Source: Natronosalvus halobius
GTDB taxonomy: Archaea > Halobacteriota > Halobacteria > Halobacteriales > Natrialbaceae
DNA length: 64,000 bases
NCBI RefSeq assembly: GCF_024138145.1
Contig: NZ_CP099997.1
Span: 2,108,001 to 2,172,000 of the forward strand
Reading direction: 5' to 3'
In this document: in pieces, positions 1 to 12,270 of the stretch
Layout of the letters: each line of letters starts with the position of its first letter
Numbering within the stretch: position 1 is the first letter of the stretch
The notes under the pieces: model-generated
The model's database searches: none
What the model was told of the DNA's origin: nothing
What the model saw: the letters and a program-made list of their open reading frames with translations, nothing else
Program-made: the position numbers and the translations under genes

Positions 1-2
1 CC

Positions 3-569
3 GACGAGGAGGCTAATATATACAGCAAACCGTATGAATCTGATGGCGCGATGATCTGGCGGCTTACCGAACAGATAGGGATTGACGCCGATTTTGTGAC
101 CTGGTGGTTGGCAGCTATCTCCTTCAACGACGACGGCGGGCCTTTCTACTTGGTTCATGAACGATCTGACCAAATCAGGCTGAGCGGCGTTAAACTCGAG
201 GATTTACCGAGGCTTGCGGAGGGCTTTCAGGCCGTTGAAAAGCATTGGTTAGAGGAAAGAGACCAACAGAAAGTAGAGGAAACCCGGCAAGAAGGAACGT
301 CCCTTCCAGCAGTATCTGAGATCCCACCAGCAAAATTCACAGATGACGATTGGGAGTGGATTTTGGATTCCAAAGCAGCGAAAAGTGGGGGAGATACGTT
401 AGCGATTAGGCGAGCCCCAGTACTCGATCAAGGTTCGCTCAGCACCTATGTTCTTGAACGGCGAAACGCTTCCAAAGATGACAGTTCAATTCCGATCGGG
501 GCATTTTGGGGCCATCACGGTGGATTCTTTCAGAGCGCCATCGAAGAGGCATATGATCGGTTAATATAA
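3..569 (+). CDS. C-terminal part of an unrecognised protein, cut by the left edge
   Basis: The reading frame is already open at base 3, so the ATG at 51 need not be the start; this is probably the C-terminal end of a longer protein. What remains is about 188 residues, acidic, with Trp-rich stretches (residues such as DFVTWWLAAIS near the left, GAFWGHHGG near the end) and no membrane segment. I do not recognise a domain. It precedes pglX on the same strand with a 129-bp gap, so in a BREX island it could be a BREX component or an accessory gene; a BrxC C-terminus cannot be confirmed or excluded by eye. The product is left unnamed. Confidence 0.6.
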   Translation, partial: DEEANIYSKPYESDGAMIWRLTEQIGIDADFVTWWLAAISFNDDGGPFYLVHERSDQIRLSGVKLEDLPRLAEGFQAVEKHWLEERDQQKVEETRQEGTSLPAVSEIPPAKFTDDDWEWILDSKAAKSGGDTLAIRRAPVLDQGSLSTYVLERRNASKDDSSIPIGAFWGHHGGFFQSAIEEAYDRLI

Positions 570-698: not shown

Positions 699-3600
699 AT
701 GGCAGCTACGACCCATCAGAACGGCCTCAGTGCGGACGATCGATCAGACATTCGAAGTACCATCCTGAGCGCGCGATCGACACTCGAGGAGGAGTTCGAA
801 CGCCAACTCGAGCGCTACGGCATTTACGACGACGATCGTGTGCCGGTGAATTCGCTCTCACACCTCTCAGTGGAAGATATCGCGACCCGAAAGGAGATTG
901 ACGCGGCGTTAGAACGCGAACTCGAGGCAACTGACGGACTCTACGGCCGAGCCTACCAGAACTACATCCGCGAGGCGACCAAGGAGTATCTCAACCGCTT
1001 CGTGGGGATGAAGACGATCGAGGCGCGGGAGCTGGTCACCGAAACCCTCCGTAGGCGACCGGAGTACGGTGGACGGTCGTACATGCACTACACCGTCGAC
1101 GAGATTGCAGGGGAGTTGACTGACGCAACCGACGACGGCCTCGGGGCTGCTCTGGATCTTGCCTACCAGGAGATCGGCTCGGAGATCCGAGTGTTATTCG
1201 ATGGCTCCGACTACACAGCCCTCGAGCCGGATTTCGCGATTCGACGGGAGATTCTTGAGGAACTCGACAAGCTCGGTGATGACGTATGGCAGTCAGACGA
1301 GGCGATGGGCTGGGTGTATCAGTTTTTCGGAGAGAACGAACGAGAGGAGATCGACCAGCGGATCAACGATGAGAACTACAAAGTGCAAGATACGGACGTA
1401 GCGACGAAGACCCAGTTGTTCACGCCGCGCTACATCGTCGAGTGGATGGTTGACAACTCGCTGGGACGATTGTGGCTCGAGATGCACGGCGACAAGACGA
1501 ATATTGACGACGAAGACAAGTGCTTCCACCTCGCGCCGCTCGAAAAGTCGTTGATCGACCGCGACGTGAAAGACGTGCGTGAGATCAAGGTGCTGGATCC
1601 AGCGTGTGGCAGCGGTCACATGCTGTTCTATGCTTTTGACGTATTATACGAGATGTATCTCGAGCAGAGTGATATCCCTGAAAGCCACATCCCGCGGGAG
1701 ATTTTGAAGCAAAATCTCTATGGGGTCGACATTGATGAAGGGGCGGCCCAGATCGCAGCCCTAGCTCTGTACGTGAAGGCGAAGAGCCACGCACCGGAGG
1801 TAGCTATCGAAGGGATGAATATCGTCTCGGCAAACGCGGTGCTCATTAACGGCGATAAGAAACGGCAAGTACTCGAAAGAGCGGATTCGGAACTCGAACG
1901 ACGTGTCCTCGAGCAGGTCTGGGCGAGTTTTGAACATATTCGCGAGTGGGGGAGTCTTGTCCGGATCGAGGAGCAGATCGAAGCGATCATCGAAGAAGAA
2001 ATCGAGGAAGTCAAGGCGACGGGCCAGACCCGGTTTACACACGACGGGCTGGCAAAGCAGTCGTCCGTAATGTCGTACTCAGGTGAGGAGGAATCGTGGG
2101 AGCAGGTGAAAGTGGGGCTGCTCGAACAAGTTACTGCGCTAGCTGAGGAAGCTCTGGAGCAGAACGACCCGATCGAAGAACTGTTCGCGAACGAGGTTGA
2201 AAAAAGCGTCCAGTTGGTTGATCTCTTTCTTCACAAGTACGATATCGTCATCTCTAATCCGCCGTATTTGGGCAGCGGAAAAATGAGCGAAAGCTTGAAG
2301 GAATACGTGTACGACAACTACCCGGATTCGAAAAGTGACGTATATGGAGCGTTTATCGAACGGTGTTGGGATTTTTCCAAGGAAGATGGCTATGCGACGC
2401 TAGTGACGCCTGAAAACTTCATGTTCCAGTACCATTTCAGAAATCTTAGATCTACGCTGATTGACAATGTAGAAGTCATAGAAGGAGCACACTTATCGGG
2501 GTACAGCTTTTCGATGAAAGATCGGCCGTTCACCATCCCATTTGTGATCAGAAATAGCGCTCCTTCTGATCTCGCTAAATCTCGATTCTACCGATTAACA
2601 CATGAACAAGTGGAGTACTCCGGATACGAGGAGAAGATTGACGGACTAACTGAAGTGACGAAATCCCTACGGCAGGGCAGAAATCACGAAGATGTCACTG
2701 TTGTAAATCAGCGTAATTTCAAAAAGATACGAAGGAGTCCGTTCGTTTATTGGTTTGGTAACGATATTTTGAATCTATTTAGCGAACATCATCAACTGGG
2801 CGATGTGTATGACGTTGTGAAAGGGCTCGAAACCGGCGACGACGACACGTACACCAGAAACTGGTGGGAGGTTCCCGAGAATCGGATTGGAGAGAAATAC
2901 GCCTGGCTCATGCACGGGGGCGACTATAACAGATACCACGATTCCACGGAAAAGCTAGTGCTGTGGGAGAATGACGGGAAAGAAATAAAAGAATTTGGAA
3001 AAAGTTATCCGCGGAATACCGATTACTATCGAAAACACGGTATTACCTTTAGACGTCTGAGCAAGTATTTCACTGCACGGATCCACCGCGAAAACCACCT
3101 GTTTAGCCACGCTGCACACTTCATTCACACCGGAGACGAAGACACAGATCTCTCGTTACTCGGATATCTCAACTCGTCTCTGGTGAGATACATAATGAAC
3201 GGCATAAACCCCGGAATTGACTTTCAAGTAGGCGATGCGAAAAACATACCGGTAAAGGATGACCACGTCAGCAGGAAACTGACCGCGCTCTCAACATACG
3301 GCATTCAAGCGCAAACTCAGAAATTTAGAACAATAGAATCAAAATACGAGTTTGATTCGTCAAATTTCATTGACTCCTCAGAGGATCTCCTCTTCTTACA
3401 TGATGTGCTGGAGTCAGACATCGAGATTGTCTCGGGGTTGATTGATAAGGCAGTGTTCGAGGAGTACGCTATACCGGACAGCGTGCGGAGGAAATTGTAC
3501 GAAGACCTCCCCTCGAACTTGGCCGTACTCCCACATATAGCCAACGCCGGAGAATTAGAAACGGGCGAAAAGCCATTCAGAGAGCACGTCGACGTCGAAA

Positions 3601-4412
3601 AACTCTCTGACAAGGAGTATGAGAGGCTGCTCTCCGAAATCGAATCGGCGGATGAAGAAGACGTCCGTTCTTTAGCCGAAAAACTCAACGTCTCCCCGTA
3701 TACCATCGCGATGGCGCGGAGGAACCACAGCCTGTACTCGAATGACAGGGTAAAAGAGTCCGCTGGTCGTCTCCTTTCGTATTATTTCGGCGTCCTCTTC
3801 AAACGTTGGGACAACCTCGAGAACCAAATCACCCCTACCGAAGATGGCATTCTCGTCTTCGACAATCAGTTTGACAACAACGTCACCGATCGTATCCGCG
3901 AGTGCATCGAGGCTACCTTCGACGACGTCTACGAGAAGGAAGCCGAGATTGAGGAACTGCTCAATAAGGACATGACCGACTGGCTCCGCGAGAACTTTTT
4001 CCGCTATCACCACACGAAGGAGTACCGCCGTCGCGGCCAACGCATCCCCATCTACTGGCACCTCGAGAGCAACGATGGGGCGTTCAGTTGTTTCCTCTAC
4101 TACCACGCGATGGATGCCGACACCCTTCCCAAGCTTCGGGGCCAGTACGTCGACGCCAAGATCGAAACGCTCGAGAACCGCCTCGAAAGCATCGAAAGCC
4201 GGCTCGACCGAGCCGGCGGCGACCAGCAACGGGAACTCAACACGGAACTCGAGGAGGTGCAGGAACAACTCGACGATATTCGGGACTTCGGGGACCGGCT
4301 CGACGAACTGATCGACGATGGGTTCGAGCCGGACTTCGAAGCCGGGATCTGGGAGAATATTCAGAAGGTGGACGAGTACGATCTACTGCAGACGGAACTT
4401 GATAAACTCTGA
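699..4412 (+). CDS. pglX: BREX adenine-specific DNA methyltransferase PglX
   Basis: 1237 residues, the usual size of BREX type 1 PglX. It carries the SAM-binding motif DPACGSG at about residues 300-306 and the N6-adenine catalytic motif NPPY at 520-523. The C-terminal end (about 1100-1237) is a charged helical region rich in Glu/Arg. In BREX, PglX methylates a non-palindromic site to mark self DNA and is also needed for phage exclusion. The ATG at 699 fits the start of the conserved helical N-terminus. Codon use is mosaic: the ends are GC-rich with many CTCGAG, while about 2400-3560 (after NPPY, the expected target-recognition part) is AT-richer with AGA and ATA codons. Downstream, pglZ and brxL follow after an inserted block. 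Confidence 0.95.
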   Translation: MAATTHQNGLSADDRSDIRSTILSARSTLEEEFERQLERYGIYDDDRVPVNSLSHLSVEDIATRKEIDAALERELEATDGLYGRAYQNYIREATKEYLNRFVGMKTIEARELVTETLRRRPEYGGRSYMHYTVDEIAGELTDATDDGLGAALDLAYQEIGSEIRVLFDGSDYTALEPDFAIRREILEELDKLGDDVWQSDEAMGWVYQFFGENEREEIDQRINDENYKVQDTDVATKTQLFTPRYIVEWMVDNSLGRLWLEMHGDKTNIDDEDKCFHLAPLEKSLIDRDVKDVREIKVLDPACGSGHMLFYAFDVLYEMYLEQSDIPESHIPREILKQNLYGVDIDEGAAQIAALALYVKAKSHAPEVAIEGMNIVSANAVLINGDKKRQVLERADSELERRVLEQVWASFEHIREWGSLVRIEEQIEAIIEEEIEEVKATGQTRFTHDGLAKQSSVMSYSGEEESWEQVKVGLLEQVTALAEEALEQNDPIEELFANEVEKSVQLVDLFLHKYDIVISNPPYLGSGKMSESLKEYVYDNYPDSKSDVYGAFIERCWDFSKEDGYATLVTPENFMFQYHFRNLRSTLIDNVEVIEGAHLSGYSFSMKDRPFTIPFVIRNSAPSDLAKSRFYRLTHEQVEYSGYEEKIDGLTEVTKSLRQGRNHEDVTVVNQRNFKKIRRSPFVYWFGNDILNLFSEHHQLGDVYDVVKGLETGDDDTYTRNWWEVPENRIGEKYAWLMHGGDYNRYHDSTEKLVLWENDGKEIKEFGKSYPRNTDYYRKHGITFRRLSKYFTARIHRENHLFSHAAHFIHTGDEDTDLSLLGYLNSSLVRYIMNGINPGIDFQVGDAKNIPVKDDHVSRKLTALSTYGIQAQTQKFRTIESKYEFDSSNFIDSSEDLLFLHDVLESDIEIVSGLIDKAVFEEYAIPDSVRRKLYEDLPSNLAVLPHIANAGELETGEKPFREHVDVEKLSDKEYERLLSEIESADEEDVRSLAEKLNVSPYTIAMARRNHSLYSNDRVKESAGRLLSYYFGVLFKRWDNLENQITPTEDGILVFDNQFDNNVTDRIRECIEATFDDVYEKEAEIEELLNKDMTDWLRENFFRYHHTKEYRRRGQRIPIYWHLESNDGAFSCFLYYHAMDADTLPKLRGQYVDAKIETLENRLESIESRLDRAGGDQQRELNTELEEVQEQLDDIRDFGDRLDELIDDGFEPDFEAGIWENIQKVDEYDLLQTELDKL

Positions 4413-4457
4413 CTCGCTCGAGTAGTCTTTGGGCTGACCGCCTGGGTCGACCGCGAC

Positions 4458-4467
4458 TTATTTATTA
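4458..4467 (+). promoter_or_regulatory. TATA-like box upstream of the wHTH-membrane gene
   Basis: An AT-rich run (ttatttatta) lies about 30 nt before the ATG at 4495 in an otherwise GC-rich spacer. This is the spacing of a haloarchaeal TATA box for a leaderless or very short-leader transcript. It suggests the inserted gene has its own promoter rather than depending on read-through from pglX. Confidence 0.45.
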
Positions 4468-4494
4468 CTTGCTTCTAAACGGAAGACTACGCGA

Positions 4495-5427
4495 ATGAGA
4501 GACCGGCCGCTGTGGATGGAACCCCTCGACGAGGACATCCTTCACTATCTTAAGGAGACCGACGCCGAACTGACTCCATCCGCTATCGCCCGGAATCTCG
4601 ACCCTCACTCGTACGGGGAAATACGTTTTCGGATAGCAGACCTTGAGAGACAGGGTTTCATCGAAAAAACACACGAAGAGTGGGGCTACTATGGCATTTC
4701 GAAGACTGGCCGAGAGTATCTCGATGGACGCCTGAACGAGTCACTATCAAGCGACCATGACCTACCTGATGACGACGATGCTGTGGGAGATGGTACTATT
4801 GACTCGCAGACTACTGGGACGACATCTGATTACCGACGTATTCTGCTCACCGATATTCAACAAGAATATGAACGGCAACTAGACTCCTACAAGACGCTCG
4901 ACAATACAGCACTGCGAGGTGTCCGAACTGGATTTGTCGTTATCGGCGTCCTCGTAACCGGTTTCAGTATTGCAGATCTCCCAGATCCTGCCGAGATACA
5001 CTGGGGAATCCCGACCCTCATCATCTCTGCGATTATGCTATTTCTCTCGGCGATCCTTCTTGGATGGATTGTCGTCAACATCACCGACTTCGAACACGGT
5101 GTTGGCCCAGTTCATCGAGATAGTGTACTTGACGACCCATCTGAACCTATCGAAGAAACGATCGACAGATACGATTCGCTTGGCTCACAACTCGATGCAG
5201 AAATCGAGCGCAATACGAACGTCCTTTCGCTCATGCACGTCTCGATTTTTATTGGTGTGTGCGTTCTCATAATCGCTAGTGGGCTCTACGTCTTTACAAC
5301 CATCTACGAGTGGCAACTTTTGCACGCTGGACTCGCTTCGATTTTACCACCAATTCTGGCCTTTGTAGGAGCGGTACTATTATACAGGATGGCCGCAAAT
5401 AGCACCATAGACAATGGTACCAGATAA
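4495..5427 (+). CDS. Winged-helix protein fused to four membrane helices, BREX-embedded
   Basis: 310 residues in two parts. Residues about 1-80 look like a winged helix (helices around EDILHYLKE and TPSAIARNL, then a wing ending GYYGISKTGREYL), as in haloarchaeal PhiH1-repressor-like domains. After an acidic linker and an amphipathic helix (about 120-140) there are two hydrophobic hairpins: TM1-2 around 142-200 and TM3-4 around 245-303, separated by a charged helical stretch. It starts 82 bp after pglX on the same strand. No enzymatic motif is visible. The layout (sensor-like N-terminus plus paired membrane helices, inside a defence operon) suggests a membrane-acting accessory or a membrane-tethered regulator; this is inference. 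I know of no named BREX component with this architecture. Confidence 0.8.
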   Translation: MRDRPLWMEPLDEDILHYLKETDAELTPSAIARNLDPHSYGEIRFRIADLERQGFIEKTHEEWGYYGISKTGREYLDGRLNESLSSDHDLPDDDDAVGDGTIDSQTTGTTSDYRRILLTDIQQEYERQLDSYKTLDNTALRGVRTGFVVIGVLVTGFSIADLPDPAEIHWGIPTLIISAIMLFLSAILLGWIVVNITDFEHGVGPVHRDSVLDDPSEPIEETIDRYDSLGSQLDAEIERNTNVLSLMHVSIFIGVCVLIIASGLYVFTTIYEWQLLHAGLASILPPILAFVGAVLLYRMAANSTIDNGTR

Positions 5428-5560
5428 CGGCTCAAATAATGGCGACAGTTCCCGCCGATTTCGTGGGGGTAGCCCCCTGACGAGAGCCTTCTGGAGAAAA
5501 GTTGGAGTCATGTCGGTTCGTGAAGAACGGGCGATGAAAGCCGACGAAAACGGCAACTAA
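5414..5560 (+). CDS. Possible 48-residue small protein overlapping the membrane gene
   Basis: An ATG at 5414 opens a frame that overlaps the last 14 nt of the preceding gene and runs to TAA at 5558. The peptide is polar and basic in the middle (RRFRGG, then TRAFWRKVG), with no membrane segment, and ends in a charged tail. Overlapping stop and start would allow translational coupling. It is short, and no homologue is recognised, so it may be spurious; it is reported because the remaining spacer holds no other plus-strand candidate. Confidence 0.35.
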   Translation: MVPDNGSNNGDSSRRFRGGSPLTRAFWRKVGVMSVREERAMKADENGN

Positions 5561-5579
5561 CCCTCAGATTTTAACGCGA

Positions 5580-5691
5580 GTTACGCTCTCGCCACCTGTT
5601 CGTAGGACTCGAGAATTGACGCTCGGACATCGTCTGTGATCTCGTTTGTAGTCCGCAATTCGACCGTATACTTGAACGAGCCACGCCACTT
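5580..5691 (-). pseudogene. Remnant of a decayed gene (C-terminal fragment)
   Basis: On the minus strand a 38-codon open stretch encodes a protein-like end (SSKWRGSFKYTVELR, then a segment ending ESYEQVARA) followed by TAA. The alternation of strand-like and helical segments and the codon use look genuine, yet a TGA lies four codons upstream in the same frame and no start is available. It is best read as the surviving C-terminus of a gene lost when the insert between pglX and pglZ was assembled. The family is not recognised. The rest of 5561-5800 holds nothing else I can support. Confidence 0.4.
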
Positions 5692-5800
5692 CGAGCTCGG
5701 AGGATCTCACTGAACTGACTGTTTTCGTTCGGCGTCCGTAACGGCGGTTCACGAACCGATTCTCTACTGAACCTGACCGTACGGTATAATCTCTATTGAA

Positions 5801-7615
5801 TTATGTTCGGTCCCTAATGCCGACATTTTCCACGATGTGTGTTTTGATTGCCTTCTCTCGCTCGAGCACAAACGTATCGAAATCGTCCTGTTTTAGAGAC
5901 TCGTATGCTTGATCAGAGATGAAATGACTACGTAAGAGTTCTCTGACTGCTTCTTCATCCCCGTGTTTGGCGATCATCATCTGGAGATATTTCGATGGTC
6001 GCTTCGTTTTGATATTGTTATTCGTGCCGTCCAAGATTAGAGTTCTGTTAACGATCGAATCCTTTGCACTGGCAAATGTTTGGGATTTTTCGGGAGCCAA
6101 GCCCGTGACCTTTTTCGGGAAGATGTGGTGATCGTTGATCTTCTGTTCGGAGAAATCTCCCGTCCCAACGGTTCGACCCTTGTAGAAATCTTTTGCATTG
6201 TGCAACGCCAACAAACAAATGATCGCATTGTATCTGGCAGATCCTTTATCCACGGATCTGAGATCGAGTTCATCAATGAACTCCTCATCGATCTTCATAA
6301 TTCGTTCGATGGGATTGCCACCATCAATCCACTCCTTCCAATCACGGAAATCCTTGGCCATAACGGTGTCTGACGAACCACTGTAATCCTGAGAGAGGAC
6401 TGCCGACCAGTACCACTGACTGAGTGTTTGCTTAAATTCAGGATCGTCAGTATCACCATCATATTCCCAGAGAATAGCCGCCAAGACCGGTACAATAGTA
6501 CTGTTGGGAATGAAGCCAGTCTTTATCGCTCCGAACTCCGCATCGCCCGTATTCATGATAATCTCTCGAGCCTGTTCCATATACGAACAGGACGTGTTCC
6601 ACAACTGTTCAAACTCCTCGCCTGACTCAACCAATACCTCCTCGTACCTACTACCAGTGCTATCTTTTCTAGTTACTTCCTCACCAGGAATGAGATTATA
6701 GAGATATTTTGACGAACAGTAATTTTGTTTGACCAACGAAATTGTCTTTAGAAGATATTCGTTCATATTCGAGTCGATACTCTTCAGCGTCTCGTTGTCC
6801 ATTTTCTCCCAGAGTTCTTTTCGAAGTTTGACTCCACTTGGATAGAGGAAAGCGTTCATCAGATCGAACGTTGAGAGTTTCATTCCGCTTGCGTTCACCT
6901 TCGCAAAAATATTACAAATATCGTGAATGTCTCGGTCGTTGCTCAGTGGATAGTCAACGAAGGTATAATCTAAAATACTCACAAATACATCCCGAACGTC
7001 CCACGGTTTGATGTCTGCTGGTAAATCCGACCTCCGTTCCTTAATGAACTGATCAATCCACACTTCGAATTCCTGTGAATCGATGTATTTTTTGTTTGGG
7101 TACTTCGAATCAGTAGCCGAGAGAATACAAAGTGGAACCTTTCCGTGATCTATCCAGCTTTCTCTATTCTTCCGCAACTGATCCCAGTCACGATAATTCT
7201 GAAAGTATCGATAGGAGACCGACTCTTCATATTCCTCGTTCAGAACCGAAATCAGATCCAGATAAAAGACATAGTAGGATTTTCGACTGGGGAATTTCTC
7301 CTCTGGGTTGTGAATTGCGTAGTACAGAGAGGAGAGTCGTTGCTGGCCGTCAAGAACTGCCTTCTCGGGGGTATTTTCGAGGGTTGCACCCCAAATCGGA
7401 TCCCATTTTTCTTCCTCCCCGCGTTTAGTATCTAAATCCCAAAACAACAGTAGCCCAGTGTAGTAATTTTGAAGGATAGACTCGAAAAGTTCGGCGACCA
7501 TCGAAGGTTGCCACTCGAATCCTCGCTGGAAATACGGAATGACGTACGATCCATCCTCAACATTCTGTAAGAGAGTTTCTACCTGCTTTGTCCCCGGGTT
7601 CTCAACATCAACCAT
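5801..7615 (-). CDS. DUF262/DUF1524 GmrSD-type (BrxU-like) modification-dependent nuclease
   Basis: 604 residues. The N-terminal DUF262 half has the family motifs IPYFQRGFEW (about 26-35) and DGQQRL (89-94), plus FAKVNASGMKLSTFDL in the middle. The C-terminal DUF1524 half has an HNH-like centre, DHHIFPK, with His496-His497 and Pro500, followed by the usual NRT...NN..K..PS.YL block. In this family the DUF262 half binds NTP and the DUF1524 half is the nuclease; GmrSD enzymes cut phage DNA with modified (for example glucosylated) cytosines. It lies antisense between pglX and pglZ, comparable to BrxU encoded inside some bacterial BREX islands. The gene is clearly AT-richer than its neighbours, which suggests transfer. 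Which modification it recognises cannot be told from sequence. Confidence 0.88.
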   Translation of the reverse strand: MVDVENPGTKQVETLLQNVEDGSYVIPYFQRGFEWQPSMVAELFESILQNYYTGLLLFWDLDTKRGEEEKWDPIWGATLENTPEKAVLDGQQRLSSLYYAIHNPEEKFPSRKSYYVFYLDLISVLNEEYEESVSYRYFQNYRDWDQLRKNRESWIDHGKVPLCILSATDSKYPNKKYIDSQEFEVWIDQFIKERRSDLPADIKPWDVRDVFVSILDYTFVDYPLSNDRDIHDICNIFAKVNASGMKLSTFDLMNAFLYPSGVKLRKELWEKMDNETLKSIDSNMNEYLLKTISLVKQNYCSSKYLYNLIPGEEVTRKDSTGSRYEEVLVESGEEFEQLWNTSCSYMEQAREIIMNTGDAEFGAIKTGFIPNSTIVPVLAAILWEYDGDTDDPEFKQTLSQWYWSAVLSQDYSGSSDTVMAKDFRDWKEWIDGGNPIERIMKIDEEFIDELDLRSVDKGSARYNAIICLLALHNAKDFYKGRTVGTGDFSEQKINDHHIFPKKVTGLAPEKSQTFASAKDSIVNRTLILDGTNNNIKTKRPSKYLQMMIAKHGDEEAVRELLRSHFISDQAYESLKQDDFDTFVLEREKAIKTHIVENVGIRDRT

Positions 7616-7807
7616 ATCTTCCTTCTTTCATCAATAGATACTAAAGGTGAGGGAAGTACTGCTCATGGACACTAAGCAGACATCGGTAAATTGACTCAGA
7701 TCGTTTGACAAAGCTAACTACCAGACTCTTATAGTAACAGTCACTCAATGACGGGTAAGTGAGAATATGCGACGTGGGAAACTAAATGCGACAGTGGTGG
7801 TTCGCTA

Positions 7808-10246
7808 ATGGCCGATACGGTCACACAGGTTATCTCCGAACTCAAGGAGAAGTTCGAGCGCCATCCCGTCTGGGTCTGGTACGACTCGAGCGAAAAGTAC
7901 GGGAACGTCATCGACGAGATCGAAGCCGCGATGGAAGATCGTGGCGTCAACGTCGCTCGATACAACGGGAGCTTCCTCGAGCTCAAGCGCCGGCTCTGGG
8001 AGGAAGACAACGACATCGACGAGCAGTGGCTGTTCTATGTCCCGAAGTGGCGTGACGACGCCGACTGGTTCATGGACGTTCACCGGCTCGGGCGCCAATA
8101 CCGACCTAGTGCGACGGTTGGCGATCGACCTGCCTCAAAATACCTCGTTGGAAAAGAAGATCGAATCCCGGATGAGTACGCCAACTGGGGGCAAAACGAA
8201 ACACAACTGAGCCGGGCGTTTTTTTGCGTCCTGTTCGATACACCGAATCACTCCCCACGAGACTACCTCGTCGAGTATCTCGCCGATCCGGACGCATACC
8301 GAGATACGATCGAAGAACACGGCCAGGCACACGAGTGGACGCACCTCCTCGAGGAAACCTACGGGATTGCAGCCGGTCTCGATGCCGAGGAAATCGCAAC
8401 CGAATTGCTCTTCGGCGAACTCGAACACACCTCACCCACCGACCGCTACTCACGGCTTGCAGCCGACGGTACGAGAGAAGCAGCGCGTTTCTGTGAGTAC
8501 TGGCAGAAGATCGATACCGCGACCTACCTCGAATACGCGGCCGTCGTGAGCGACGATCGAAACCTTACCGAGGAAGTCATCGCCTCGGACGCACTCGAGT
8601 GGGAATCCAACGCATTTCGGCAGATCGACGATGGACTCGTCCGGCTCTGCCTGAATCGCCTCCTAGACGCCGACTACGACGAACTTCCAGCGCTCGCAAC
8701 TGACCTCGAACCCGTCGTCGAACGCCGACAGAACGGCTTCTGGTACGATGAGGGCCACGCAGGCTACTGGGATATTCTCGAGCACGGTCTCGAGGTACTT
8801 CATGAGACTGGCTCGGCGATCGAAGAAATCGAAGCCGAAGGTTACGACCCACAGACCATTGCTGACCGGTACACCGAGGAGTGGTGGACGATCGACGCTG
8901 CCTATCGTCGATACGTTCGGAGCGTTCAGGATAACCGCCGTGCGGTCGACGAACTCCATGGCGTCCGTGACCAAATTACGGCGTCGTACGTCTCCTTCCT
9001 TCGAACGCTCAATCGGCCAGTCGCCGAAGGGTTGGCCACCGACCCCGCGCTCGGTACACCACAGACCGACTTCTTCGACGCGTACGTCGAACGAGAGGAG
9101 GGAACCGCCGTTCTCATTTGTGACGGGCTTCGCTACGAATTAGCTCGAGAACTCGAGCAGCGGTTTGAATCCGACGAGGAGACAGACCAACAGATGAAGT
9201 TCACCTCGGCAGCCCTCCCCTCGATTACAGAGGTCGGTATGGCGACACACCTCCCCGGCGAACTGTCACTCAAACTCGACTCGGATGACGAATTGGTCGT
9301 CTCGGTCGATGACACTGAAATGTCGGATAAAGGCGATCGAAAAGCGCGCTTCGCCGATGCTGGTTTTACCGTCGCCGATATCGATGATATCCTCGACGAC
9401 CCCCAGTCGGCTCTGAAAGAAGCGGGAACGCCACCAAGGATCGTCTACTCCGGAACCATCGACAAGCTCGGAGAAAGCTTCGACGACGACAAAGCGTTCG
9501 GACAGGTTGCCGATCACGTTCGCGACGTCGAAGACGTTATTCAGCGACTCCGTGCGGTTGGGTATACCCGATTCGTCGTTACTGCAGATCACGGCTTCCT
9601 CTACACCGAAGAACTCCCGAACAAGGACAAAGTCGACTCACTCGACGGTGTTGCGTTCACGAAACGACGGTTTGCCGTCGCTGACGCGGATGCACCGGTT
9701 ATTCCCGGTGACGAAATCATCGAGTTCGATGATGAACAGCTACAGAAACTCGGCATTGATGCGGCCGATCTGCGGCTGTTTTTCCCACGAAGCGTGGCCT
9801 GTTTCTATGCTGCCGGTGGGAACATGCGCTACTTCCATGGTGGGATCTCGATGCAAGAGCTCGTCGTCCCCTGTCTCACGGTGACGACTGTTGAACGCGA
9901 GGACGAGGATGCGCCGATCGAGTACGAGGTCACGTTCCCAGAGAGCGTCTCGAACACGATTGTCGACGTGACGATTACGGCCCGTAGTGGCCAGCTGTCG
10001 TTCACCCGGACACCCACCCTCCGACTCACTGCGACGGTTGATGGTAGAGAGGTGGCCGAGCCAAAACGCGTCGAGATAAATCAAGGCGAAAATGAGACCA
10101 CCATCCGTCTGAAGAGTGGGGAACTTGATGAGGACGCAACCATTTTGTTCGAAGCGATCGATGAGGAAACCCGAGAAACGGTGGCCACTGGTGAAGCAAC
10201 GAATAACATCATTATGCGGGAGGACTTCGAGTTCGATATTGAATGA
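7808..10246 (+). CDS. pglZ: BREX phosphatase-like protein PglZ
   Basis: 812 residues, typical of BREX-1 PglZ type A. The alkaline-phosphatase-superfamily core is visible: VLICDGLRYE with Asp439 (metal site) and VVTADHGF with Asp594-His595, followed by a C-terminal beta-rich domain (about 690-812). PglZ is essential for BREX protection in studied systems; the family is a putative metal-dependent phosphodiesterase/phosphatase. The ATG at 7808 is 192 bp from the divergent DUF262 gene, so promoters for both genes must lie in 7616-7807. Its stop overlaps the brxL start (ATGA), so the two are translationally coupled. Confidence 0.95.
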   Translation: MADTVTQVISELKEKFERHPVWVWYDSSEKYGNVIDEIEAAMEDRGVNVARYNGSFLELKRRLWEEDNDIDEQWLFYVPKWRDDADWFMDVHRLGRQYRPSATVGDRPASKYLVGKEDRIPDEYANWGQNETQLSRAFFCVLFDTPNHSPRDYLVEYLADPDAYRDTIEEHGQAHEWTHLLEETYGIAAGLDAEEIATELLFGELEHTSPTDRYSRLAADGTREAARFCEYWQKIDTATYLEYAAVVSDDRNLTEEVIASDALEWESNAFRQIDDGLVRLCLNRLLDADYDELPALATDLEPVVERRQNGFWYDEGHAGYWDILEHGLEVLHETGSAIEEIEAEGYDPQTIADRYTEEWWTIDAAYRRYVRSVQDNRRAVDELHGVRDQITASYVSFLRTLNRPVAEGLATDPALGTPQTDFFDAYVEREEGTAVLICDGLRYELARELEQRFESDEETDQQMKFTSAALPSITEVGMATHLPGELSLKLDSDDELVVSVDDTEMSDKGDRKARFADAGFTVADIDDILDDPQSALKEAGTPPRIVYSGTIDKLGESFDDDKAFGQVADHVRDVEDVIQRLRAVGYTRFVVTADHGFLYTEELPNKDKVDSLDGVAFTKRRFAVADADAPVIPGDEIIEFDDEQLQKLGIDAADLRLFFPRSVACFYAAGGNMRYFHGGISMQELVVPCLTVTTVEREDEDAPIEYEVTFPESVSNTIVDVTITARSGQLSFTRTPTLRLTATVDGREVAEPKRVEINQGENETTIRLKSGELDEDATILFEAIDEETRETVATGEATNNIIMREDFEFDIE

Positions 10247-12270
10247 CTCGTCGTGAACTCGATCAAAAGGCGCTCGAGCACTTTTCTGGACGTGTCGTCC
10301 GGAAAGACCTCGTCCAGGACATCAAATCAGGGGCGAACGTTCCGACGTACGTTCTCGAATACCTCGTTGGGAAATACTGTGCGACGGATAGCGAGGCCGC
10401 GATCGAAGAGGGAGTCGACACAGTCAAGCAGATCCTGAAAAAGCACTACGTCAGACCTGATGAGGCTGAGTTCATTAAATCAGAAGTCCGCGAACGGGGG
10501 CGGTACCGTGTCATCGACAAAGTGACCGTCCACCTGGACGAGCGCCAGGATGCCTACGTCGGCTCGTTCGTCAATCTGAATCTCACGGACGTTGAAATTA
10601 ACGAGCACCTCGTCAGCAAACACCCGAAGCTGCTTGGTGGAGGTGTCTGGGCGATAATCGATCTGGAATACATTCCGGACAACGTCGGCTCCGAACACAG
10701 CCTCTTCGGGATCGACTCGTTCCAGCCGATTCAGGTATCGAGCCTCGACCTCGACGAAATTAAAGAGCAACGCAAGGAGTTCACGCGCGATGAATGGAGG
10801 GATCTATTGCTACACAGCATGGGATATGACCCCTCAAGTTTCACTAATCGAGAGAAGATGCTGTTTCTCACTCGTTGTCTCCCTCTCTGTGAGAATAATT
10901 ACAATTATGTCGAACTCGGGCCGCGTGGAACTGGGAAGAGCTTCCTGTATCGCGAGATCAGCCCACACTCGATTCTCATCTCCGGTGGAAAAACGACGGT
11001 TGCGAAGTTGTTCTTGAACCTCAATACAGGCCAGATTGGGCTTGTCGGACGGTGGGATGTTGTCGCCTTCGACGAAGTAGGCGGATTGCGATTCTCCGAT
11101 TCGGAAGCCGTCCAAATGCTCAAGGATTACATGGAGTCGGGGAGCTTCTCACGAGGGACAGAGGAACTCACAGCACGTGCATCAATGGTCTATGTTGGGA
11201 ATATCGACCTCGACGTAGAGGGGGTGTTGAAAAGTTCACACCTCTTCAAGCCCTTCCCGGACGAGATGCAGGATCTTGCGCTGATCGATCGCTTCCACTA
11301 CTATCTTCCCGGCTGGGAAATTCCGAAAATGCGATCGGAATTCTTCGACGACCAGTTCGGCTTTATCGTCGATTATTACTCCGAATTCATGCGCGAGCTC
11401 CGGAAAGAATCGCAGGGGGATGCGATCAACGAATACTTCGCATTCGGAGACCACCTGAATCAGCGTGACGAGAAAGCCGTCCGAAAAACTGTATCAGGTT
11501 TTCTCAAGATGCTTCACCCAGATGGGGAATACACAAAGGAAGAACTCCAGGAGTATCTCGAGTTCGCGATGGAAGGCCGACGACGGGTGAAAGAGCAGCT
11601 CAAGCGAATGGGTGGGATGGAATACAGAGCAGTCAACTTCTCGTACACAGATTTGGACACTCGAGAGGAGATATTTGTCACTGTCCCAGAGGAAGCAGAG
11701 GAGACGCTCATTCCTCAAGGATCCCAACAACCAGGTTCGATATACACAATCGGGAATTCGGAGTCCAGTAATGCAGTCTTCCGGATTGAAACCCAAGCGC
11801 TACCAGGGAAAGGGAAGAAAAGCATCTCAGGCACCCCTGGATCTAAAATGAAAGAAGAGTTCCAGACTGCCTACGACTACCTCAAAGCAAATATGCGGGA
11901 GCTCTCTCGAGACGAAACTCTCGACGATCACGACATCAAAATCCAGGTTTTGAACCCTTCAGATGCCTCTGAAGGAACGTCTACCAGCGTCGGGTTCTTA
12001 GTAGGGATAATCTCCAGTATCCTCGATCGACCGGTACGGCCACGCCTTGTCGTACTTGGAAGCATGAGCCTCATGGGAGAACTCGTCGAAGCAAGCTCGC
12101 TCGTCGATAAGCTTCAGCTGGCAGTCGATTCAGGAGCGGGAACGGTACTCCTTCCCGCTAAAAACAAAGACAGCTTCAGCAAGATACCGGACGAGATTCT
12201 CGACGAACTCGAATTGGTGTTCTATACCGACCCAATCGAAGCCGCTAGCAAGGCGTTACAACTGGAGTGA
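10243..12270 (+). CDS. brxL: BREX Lon-like AAA+ protein BrxL
   Basis: 675 residues, the usual BrxL length. The AAA+ centre has Walker A GPRGTGKS (226-233) and Walker B VVAFDEV (Asp277-Glu278). The C-terminal 100 residues resemble the Lon protease fold (EGTSTSVG at 577-584, then SSLVDKLQLA). Aligned by eye with Lon, Ser580 sits where the catalytic Ser would be, but the catalytic Lys position is Val621, so proteolysis is doubtful. BrxL is known as a DNA-binding ring needed for phage restriction in BREX type 1. It overlaps pglZ by 4 nt and ends the cluster. Confidence 0.95.
   Translation: MTRRELDQKALEHFSGRVVRKDLVQDIKSGANVPTYVLEYLVGKYCATDSEAAIEEGVDTVKQILKKHYVRPDEAEFIKSEVRERGRYRVIDKVTVHLDERQDAYVGSFVNLNLTDVEINEHLVSKHPKLLGGGVWAIIDLEYIPDNVGSEHSLFGIDSFQPIQVSSLDLDEIKEQRKEFTRDEWRDLLLHSMGYDPSSFTNREKMLFLTRCLPLCENNYNYVELGPRGTGKSFLYREISPHSILISGGKTTVAKLFLNLNTGQIGLVGRWDVVAFDEVGGLRFSDSEAVQMLKDYMESGSFSRGTEELTARASMVYVGNIDLDVEGVLKSSHLFKPFPDEMQDLALIDRFHYYLPGWEIPKMRSEFFDDQFGFIVDYYSEFMRELRKESQGDAINEYFAFGDHLNQRDEKAVRKTVSGFLKMLHPDGEYTKEELQEYLEFAMEGRRRVKEQLKRMGGMEYRAVNFSYTDLDTREEIFVTVPEEAEETLIPQGSQQPGSIYTIGNSESSNAVFRIETQALPGKGKKSISGTPGSKMKEEFQTAYDYLKANMRELSRDETLDDHDIKIQVLNPSDASEGTSTSVGFLVGIISSILDRPVRPRLVVLGSMSLMGELVEASSLVDKLQLAVDSGAGTVLLPAKNKDSFSKIPDEILDELELVFYTDPIEAASKALQLE

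Follow-up and report, generated by a model that had tools for sequence, protein, structure and literature searches.

The window, a stretch of 64,000 nucleotides (C1:2108001-2172000), is part of a haloarchaeal main chromosome, in a genome of 3.85 Mb. The genes brxA, brxB and brxC are located just 5' of the window (L005), and pglX, pglZ and brxL are located within it, so that the type 1 BREX operon is complete at this locus. The gene under study stands between pglX and pglZ, convergent with a gene of the GmrSD family (5801–7615, minus strand), whose product is presumed to be a type IV restriction enzyme. The features of this part of the window are as follows:

699–4412, plus strand: pglX methyltransferase (PADLOC PglX, E = 1e-155; stop codon at 4410–4412)
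4413–7715, no strand: pglX–pglZ interval, a variable slot (blastn comparison with L132, L128 and L130; contents of 23 other loci)
4495–5427, plus strand: candidate gene for a 310-aa protein with a winged helix-turn-helix (wHTH) domain and four transmembrane (TM) segments (ORF, hydropathy and model)
5594–5756, minus strand: decayed, frame-shifted remnant of a small gene (78% DNA identity to a slot gene of genome G120)
5801–7615, minus strand: GmrSD-family gene (DUF262/DUF1524; Pfam GmrSD_N, E = 1.9e-30; PADLOC HEC-05)
7808–10246, plus strand: pglZ (Pfam and PADLOC)
10243–12270, plus strand: brxL (Pfam and PADLOC)

Almost all of the haloarchaeal BREX loci examined share a 200-aa protein (35–96% identity), which is encoded here directly upstream of brxA (L005:12157-12759). 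It has no match in Pfam or PADLOC, and its gene is a candidate for a conserved component of haloarchaeal BREX. A 238-aa protein of unassigned family (L005:17853-18569; window positions 1–569) is encoded between brxC and pglX; no homologues of it were found in the other 23 BREX loci, and this interval is a second variable slot of the BREX locus.

The candidate gene starts 83 bp after the pglX stop codon and, together with the upstream box and a short overlapping reading frame, is composed of the following elements:

4458–4467, plus strand: TATA-like box, TTATTTATTA (sequence inspection; approximately 33 nt before the ATG)
4495–4749, plus strand: winged-helix domain, residues 1–85 (model, fold match and homologues)
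4750–4812, plus strand: acidic linker, residues 86–106, disordered in the model (pLDDT <50 at residues 86–107)
4813–4971, plus strand: long helix, residues 107–159, with a cytoplasmic part carrying the family motif (D136, A139 and R144), running into TM1
5005–5082, plus strand: TM2, residues 171–196 (hydropathy and model)
5149–5310, plus strand: long helix, residues 219–272, with a cytoplasmic part carrying conserved Y226 and N240, running into TM3
5329–5418, plus strand: TM4, residues 279–308, missing in the shortest family members (hydropathy, model and alignment)
5414–5560, plus strand: 48-codon ORF overlapping the candidate stop codon, not separable from chance

By its sequence, TTATTTATTA is consistent with a TATA box serving a leaderless haloarchaeal transcript, in agreement with the original prediction, which had placed the gene directly behind pglX with a TATA-like box of its own. 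The protein was modelled with AlphaFold2 from a 12-sequence alignment (mean pLDDT 68, pTM 0.49). Hydropathy marks TM segments at residues 142–160, 176–194, 243–261 and 278–296, and the model contains long helices at residues 107–159, 171–196, 219–272 and 279–308, mostly with pLDDT values of 70–90. By these positions, the first and third long helices are predicted to begin in the cytoplasm and to enter the membrane from there, and the TM part is folded as two long helix/TM hairpins, an arrangement modelled with moderate confidence. In a Foldseek search of the whole model, no solved structure scored below E = 0.001; the structural relatives found by profile (a designed coiled coil, helical-bundle pore formers and claudins, E = 2e-6 to 0.1) were set aside as matches of helix and TM composition.

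The N-terminal head is modelled, at low confidence, as three helices (13–21, 28–34 and 37–52), two strands (56–60 and 65–68) and a last helix (70–85). It has weak HTH matches in Pfam, and a fold search of the model aligns it with a winged helix of the ADAR1 Zbeta type (prob 0.92); as modelled, the head is a winged-helix fold. The combination of a winged helix with four membrane helices, proposed earlier from the reading frame, is thus upheld by the model and by the four TM segments. The same proposal included the tiny ORF that overlaps the stop codon. Its frame is indeed open at 5414–5560 and may be translated, but we do not count it as a gene: chance predicts approximately 4.7 ATG-initiated ORFs of 48 codons or more on each strand of the 3.3-kb slot, where four to five are seen, and the best matches of this ORF among 61 genomes (E = 0.002 to 0.1) lie in frames that are unrelated or nonsense.

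The DNA that holds the candidate gene is sharply bounded. Homology to the flanks of the nearest BREX operon (genome G175, 93–94% DNA identity) ends at the pglX stop at 4412 and restarts at 7716, 92 bp before pglZ. BrxL is present in 23 of 391 haloarchaeal genomes, which gives 24 loci, and the core genes were mapped in the 23 loci other than that of the window, three of which end at contig or sequence edges. The distance from pglX to pglZ ranges from approximately 28 bp (five loci) up to 3.5 kb, with the slot occupied in 19 of the 24 loci and empty in five. Seven loci hold paralogues of the TATA-binding protein (L113:13687-14226, with a Pfam TBP match at E = 7e-44, and L114, L116, L122, L124, L126 and L112), a case of a basal transcription factor as BREX cargo. 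An 833-aa SMC/AAA-type ATPase occupies the slot in two genomes (L118:8930-11431 and L131:11643-14144, 77% identical), a 353-aa protein and a 172-aa protein occur in three loci each, and an unrelated GmrSD, a possible restriction endonuclease and others make up further contents. In the closest BREX relative, the slot (L132:10870-13751) encodes a 631-aa protein with approximately five C-terminal TM segments and a 329-aa protein that by eye is KwaB-like, a likeness for which Pfam gave no confirmation; these two genes form another membrane pair in the same slot.

The window retains a trace of this variability. The remnant at 5594–5756 has an intact counterpart of 123 aa in the BREX slot of genome G120 (L128:11313-11684, minus strand), and since the contents also differ among loci, the slot turns over its cargo. 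The candidate gene lies inside BREX in one of the 24 haloarchaeal BrxL loci, that of the window, and the G175 operon lacks it. Because the stretch is bounded by conserved BREX DNA and differs in content between loci, the candidate is a one-off cargo of a variable BREX slot, beside a GmrSD gene and a fossil gene. The idea of a BREX accessory, as put forward in the original prediction, does not survive in the sense of a conserved, co-inherited gene, with this single occurrence and with the only other full-length fusion outside BREX. A true BREX component, acting with PglX or PglZ, would account for the position between these two genes, but the absence of the gene from 23 other haloarchaeal BREX loci, including the near-identical G175 operon, makes such a role very improbable.

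A search with the TM part of the protein recovered relatives in 45 of 391 haloarchaeal genomes, from which 46 distinct members were collected; neither Pfam nor PADLOC has a family for this haloarchaeal TM module. The members share a motif before TM1 (E-x-R...D-x-Q...IDDKAMRtVRTA), and a tyrosine and an asparagine in the second cytoplasmic helix. Most are standalone proteins, and the job of the module is therefore independent of a fused DNA-binding head. A second full-length fusion is found in the same genus (G277), at 28–29% identity and outside BREX. The search of genome contigs with the candidate protein as single query gave no match. The family pattern gave no match for the TM module in IMG/VR, and we dropped a viral origin of the module on that result; the wHTH peptides of the window likewise have no IMG/VR match, and one phage record has a wHTH match of 43%.

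The head is close to widespread small haloarchaeal wHTH regulators, which also occur in Haloferax virus Halfgib1 and share approximately 40–50% identity with residues 1–85 of the candidate; those regulators are standalone proteins of approximately 100 aa, whereas the candidate domain is fused to a membrane module. In six of the 46 TM-family members, such a wHTH is either fused (the window and G277) or encoded by the gene immediately before, on the same strand; the genes of these adjacent pairs are -22 to 195 bp apart. One wHTH/TM gene pair is that of G237 (L068:9497-9808 and 9808-10434). Among the approximately 43 members found without using the wHTH, four are paired, against approximately 0.3 expected from control regions (p ~ 2e-4, a value sensitive to the background rate and to the relatedness of members). 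The pairing is thus also seen away from BREX and, as a Rosetta-stone signal, indicates that the two parts function together whether or not BREX is present.

A head of this kind fits a membrane-tethered one-component regulator, in which the TM part would respond to osmotic or envelope conditions and the wHTH, on the cytoplasmic side, would bind DNA and perhaps control its own promoter or the BREX slot. The wHTH fold is real by model and fold match, the domain belongs to a family of small haloarchaeal regulators, one of them viral, and the gene has its own TATA-like box in a clean promoter region. In addition, a separate haloarchaeal family (L030:1462-2058, L033 and L026) combines three TM segments with a C-terminal wHTH of the same type and is likely to consist of membrane-tethered regulators. 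However, 40 of the 46 TM-family members have no such wHTH, so that sensing on behalf of a fused DNA-binding domain does not by itself explain the module; the gene also sits in a cargo slot, and its TM module is PycTM-like (see below). We regard this regulator, the main rival to the reading that we favour, as possible but unlikely.

The genomic surroundings of the TM family do not single it out. Within 4 kb of 19 family members, PADLOC matches (E = 1e-12 or better, on ORFs called by a crude script) were no richer than in 19 control regions of the same contigs. General enrichment of the family in defence islands was accordingly not seen, and the co-occurrence with BREX or other defence genes that the original prediction had proposed to test was not found, apart from the one BREX locus among 24 and one other case. 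In Halopenitus malekzadehii (L079:6094-13288), a gene of the TM family (10035-10505, minus strand) stands between an HmaC/DUF499-like ATPase and an HmaB-like methyltransferase, which belong to a system class related to BREX (PMC12839542); relatives of this member with 77–80% identity are not beside Hma genes in the surrounding DNA compared. Because PADLOC matches equal those of controls, the TM family is not a defence family by neighbourhood alone, and its members enter BREX and BREX-related operons.

These counts speak for a neutral or selfish hitchhiker, i.e., a common membrane gene of unrelated function that entered a permissive slot and has no defence role. Members of the family occur in 45 of the 391 haloarchaeal genomes, and most stand clear of defence genes, which are as frequent around them as in the controls; the family occurs in BREX once, and slot turnover has left fossils. 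On the other hand, the slot lies within an operon and holds GmrSD and SMC-like genes, and neither the affinity of the module to PycTM nor its pairing with a wHTH is random; we consider a hitchhiker distinctly unlikely.

PycTM proteins disrupt membranes in Pycsar defence (PMC11224242), and several comparisons point from the TM family to them. PADLOC PycTM models are matched by eight of 27 family members (best E = 1.5e-6), with a best E among relatives of 0.016 for the Pfam model, and the nearest full-length relative, that of G277 (P0001), matches at E = 1.9e-4 over residues 120–196, its first hairpin. The window protein itself matches neither PycTM nor other defence models of Pfam and PADLOC. 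A profile–profile alignment of the family with three haloarchaeal PycTM sequences gave prob 76 and E = 2.3e-5 over 129 colinear columns; in a small control, two of the three PycTM sequences scored above 20 unrelated TM proteins and the third scored at background, to which reversed sequences also fall. On these sequence comparisons, common ancestry of the TM family with PycTM is likely but unproven.

The likeness may extend to architecture. By the colinear profile alignment, PycTM (Pfam PF18967; PADLOC PDLC02363/02364) would share the order of a first cytoplasmic helix, bearing a motif of the D-x-K-A type, then TM1, TM2, a second cytoplasmic helix and TM3, after which the short members of the haloarchaeal family also stop. 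Unlike PycTM, the window protein has an additional TM4 and the wHTH head, and its motif reads DNTA in place of DDKA or DNKA. No pyrimidine cyclase (PycC) or other activator is found next to the candidate, the neighbours being pglX, GmrSD, pglZ and brxL. The candidate may also be comparable with the SLATT and 2TM effectors (CBASS-type and DRT10-SLATT; PMC12632851), small TM effectors with cytoplasmic helices, but no nucleotide signal synthase, reverse transcriptase or SLOG partner was found with it; one family member matches the PADLOC "2TM effector" model and two match DUF4231 weakly, these weak matches being confined to relatives. The resemblance to membrane-acting abortive effectors seen in the original prediction gains some support from the remote PycTM-likeness of the family and from the recurrent wHTH pairing.

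Non-core genes are established within BREX operons as a complementary layer. In type 1 BREX, BrxU/GmrSD is embedded between brxC and pglX (PMC8565348), and a 2026 survey describes the auxiliary effectors of BREX as nuclease and RNase backups (PMC12839542); the main text of that survey makes no mention of transmembrane proteins, SLATT or PycTM. The candidate resembles BrxU in being such a gene inside the operon, and differs from it both in product, a membrane protein instead of a nuclease, and in place, the pglX–pglZ interval instead of the brxC–pglX interval.

The reading that we tentatively favour, and that we hold to be somewhat short of probable, is that the pglX–pglZ slot has acquired, as cargo for backup defence, a membrane effector under the control of its wHTH. 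The gene would have been inserted into this slot of a type 1 BREX operon as defence cargo, and its product, from a haloarchaeal family with a remote likeness to PycTM, would be a membrane effector. On the cytoplasmic side, the wHTH would restrain or trigger the membrane module, either in cis, as an autorepressor or nucleic-acid-binding domain, or by interacting with a protein; restraint by nucleic acids or nucleotides has been proposed or demonstrated for other TM effectors (PMC12632851, PMC12657218). Once infection lifts the restraint, the two amphipathic helix/TM hairpins would oligomerise and breach the membrane, providing a membrane-acting backup beside BREX and GmrSD. The analysis establishes the gene, the fold of its TM part at moderate confidence, the slot, the family and the recurring combination of wHTH and TM module. 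We infer the effector function, the toxicity, the trigger, the orientation and any link to BREX activity, as well as the steps that lead from the sequence to toxicity, trigger and antiviral effect. In a more specific form of this reading, which we consider quite improbable, the wHTH would sense nucleic acid and gate a PycTM-like effector directly, with no cyclic nucleotide as a signal, forming a membrane backup within BREX; a headless relative stands in the Hma/DUF499 operon of another species.

If the effector reading is true, a membrane-acting layer would be added to BREX, whose described add-ons are nucleases, and archaea would possess a PycTM-like effector family in which a protein sensor replaces the nucleotide signal. 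Even if the candidate is not an effector, the exact pglX–pglZ cargo slot has been mapped in haloarchaeal BREX, a source of further defence candidates, and a common haloarchaeal membrane family, missing from the libraries searched, has been defined.
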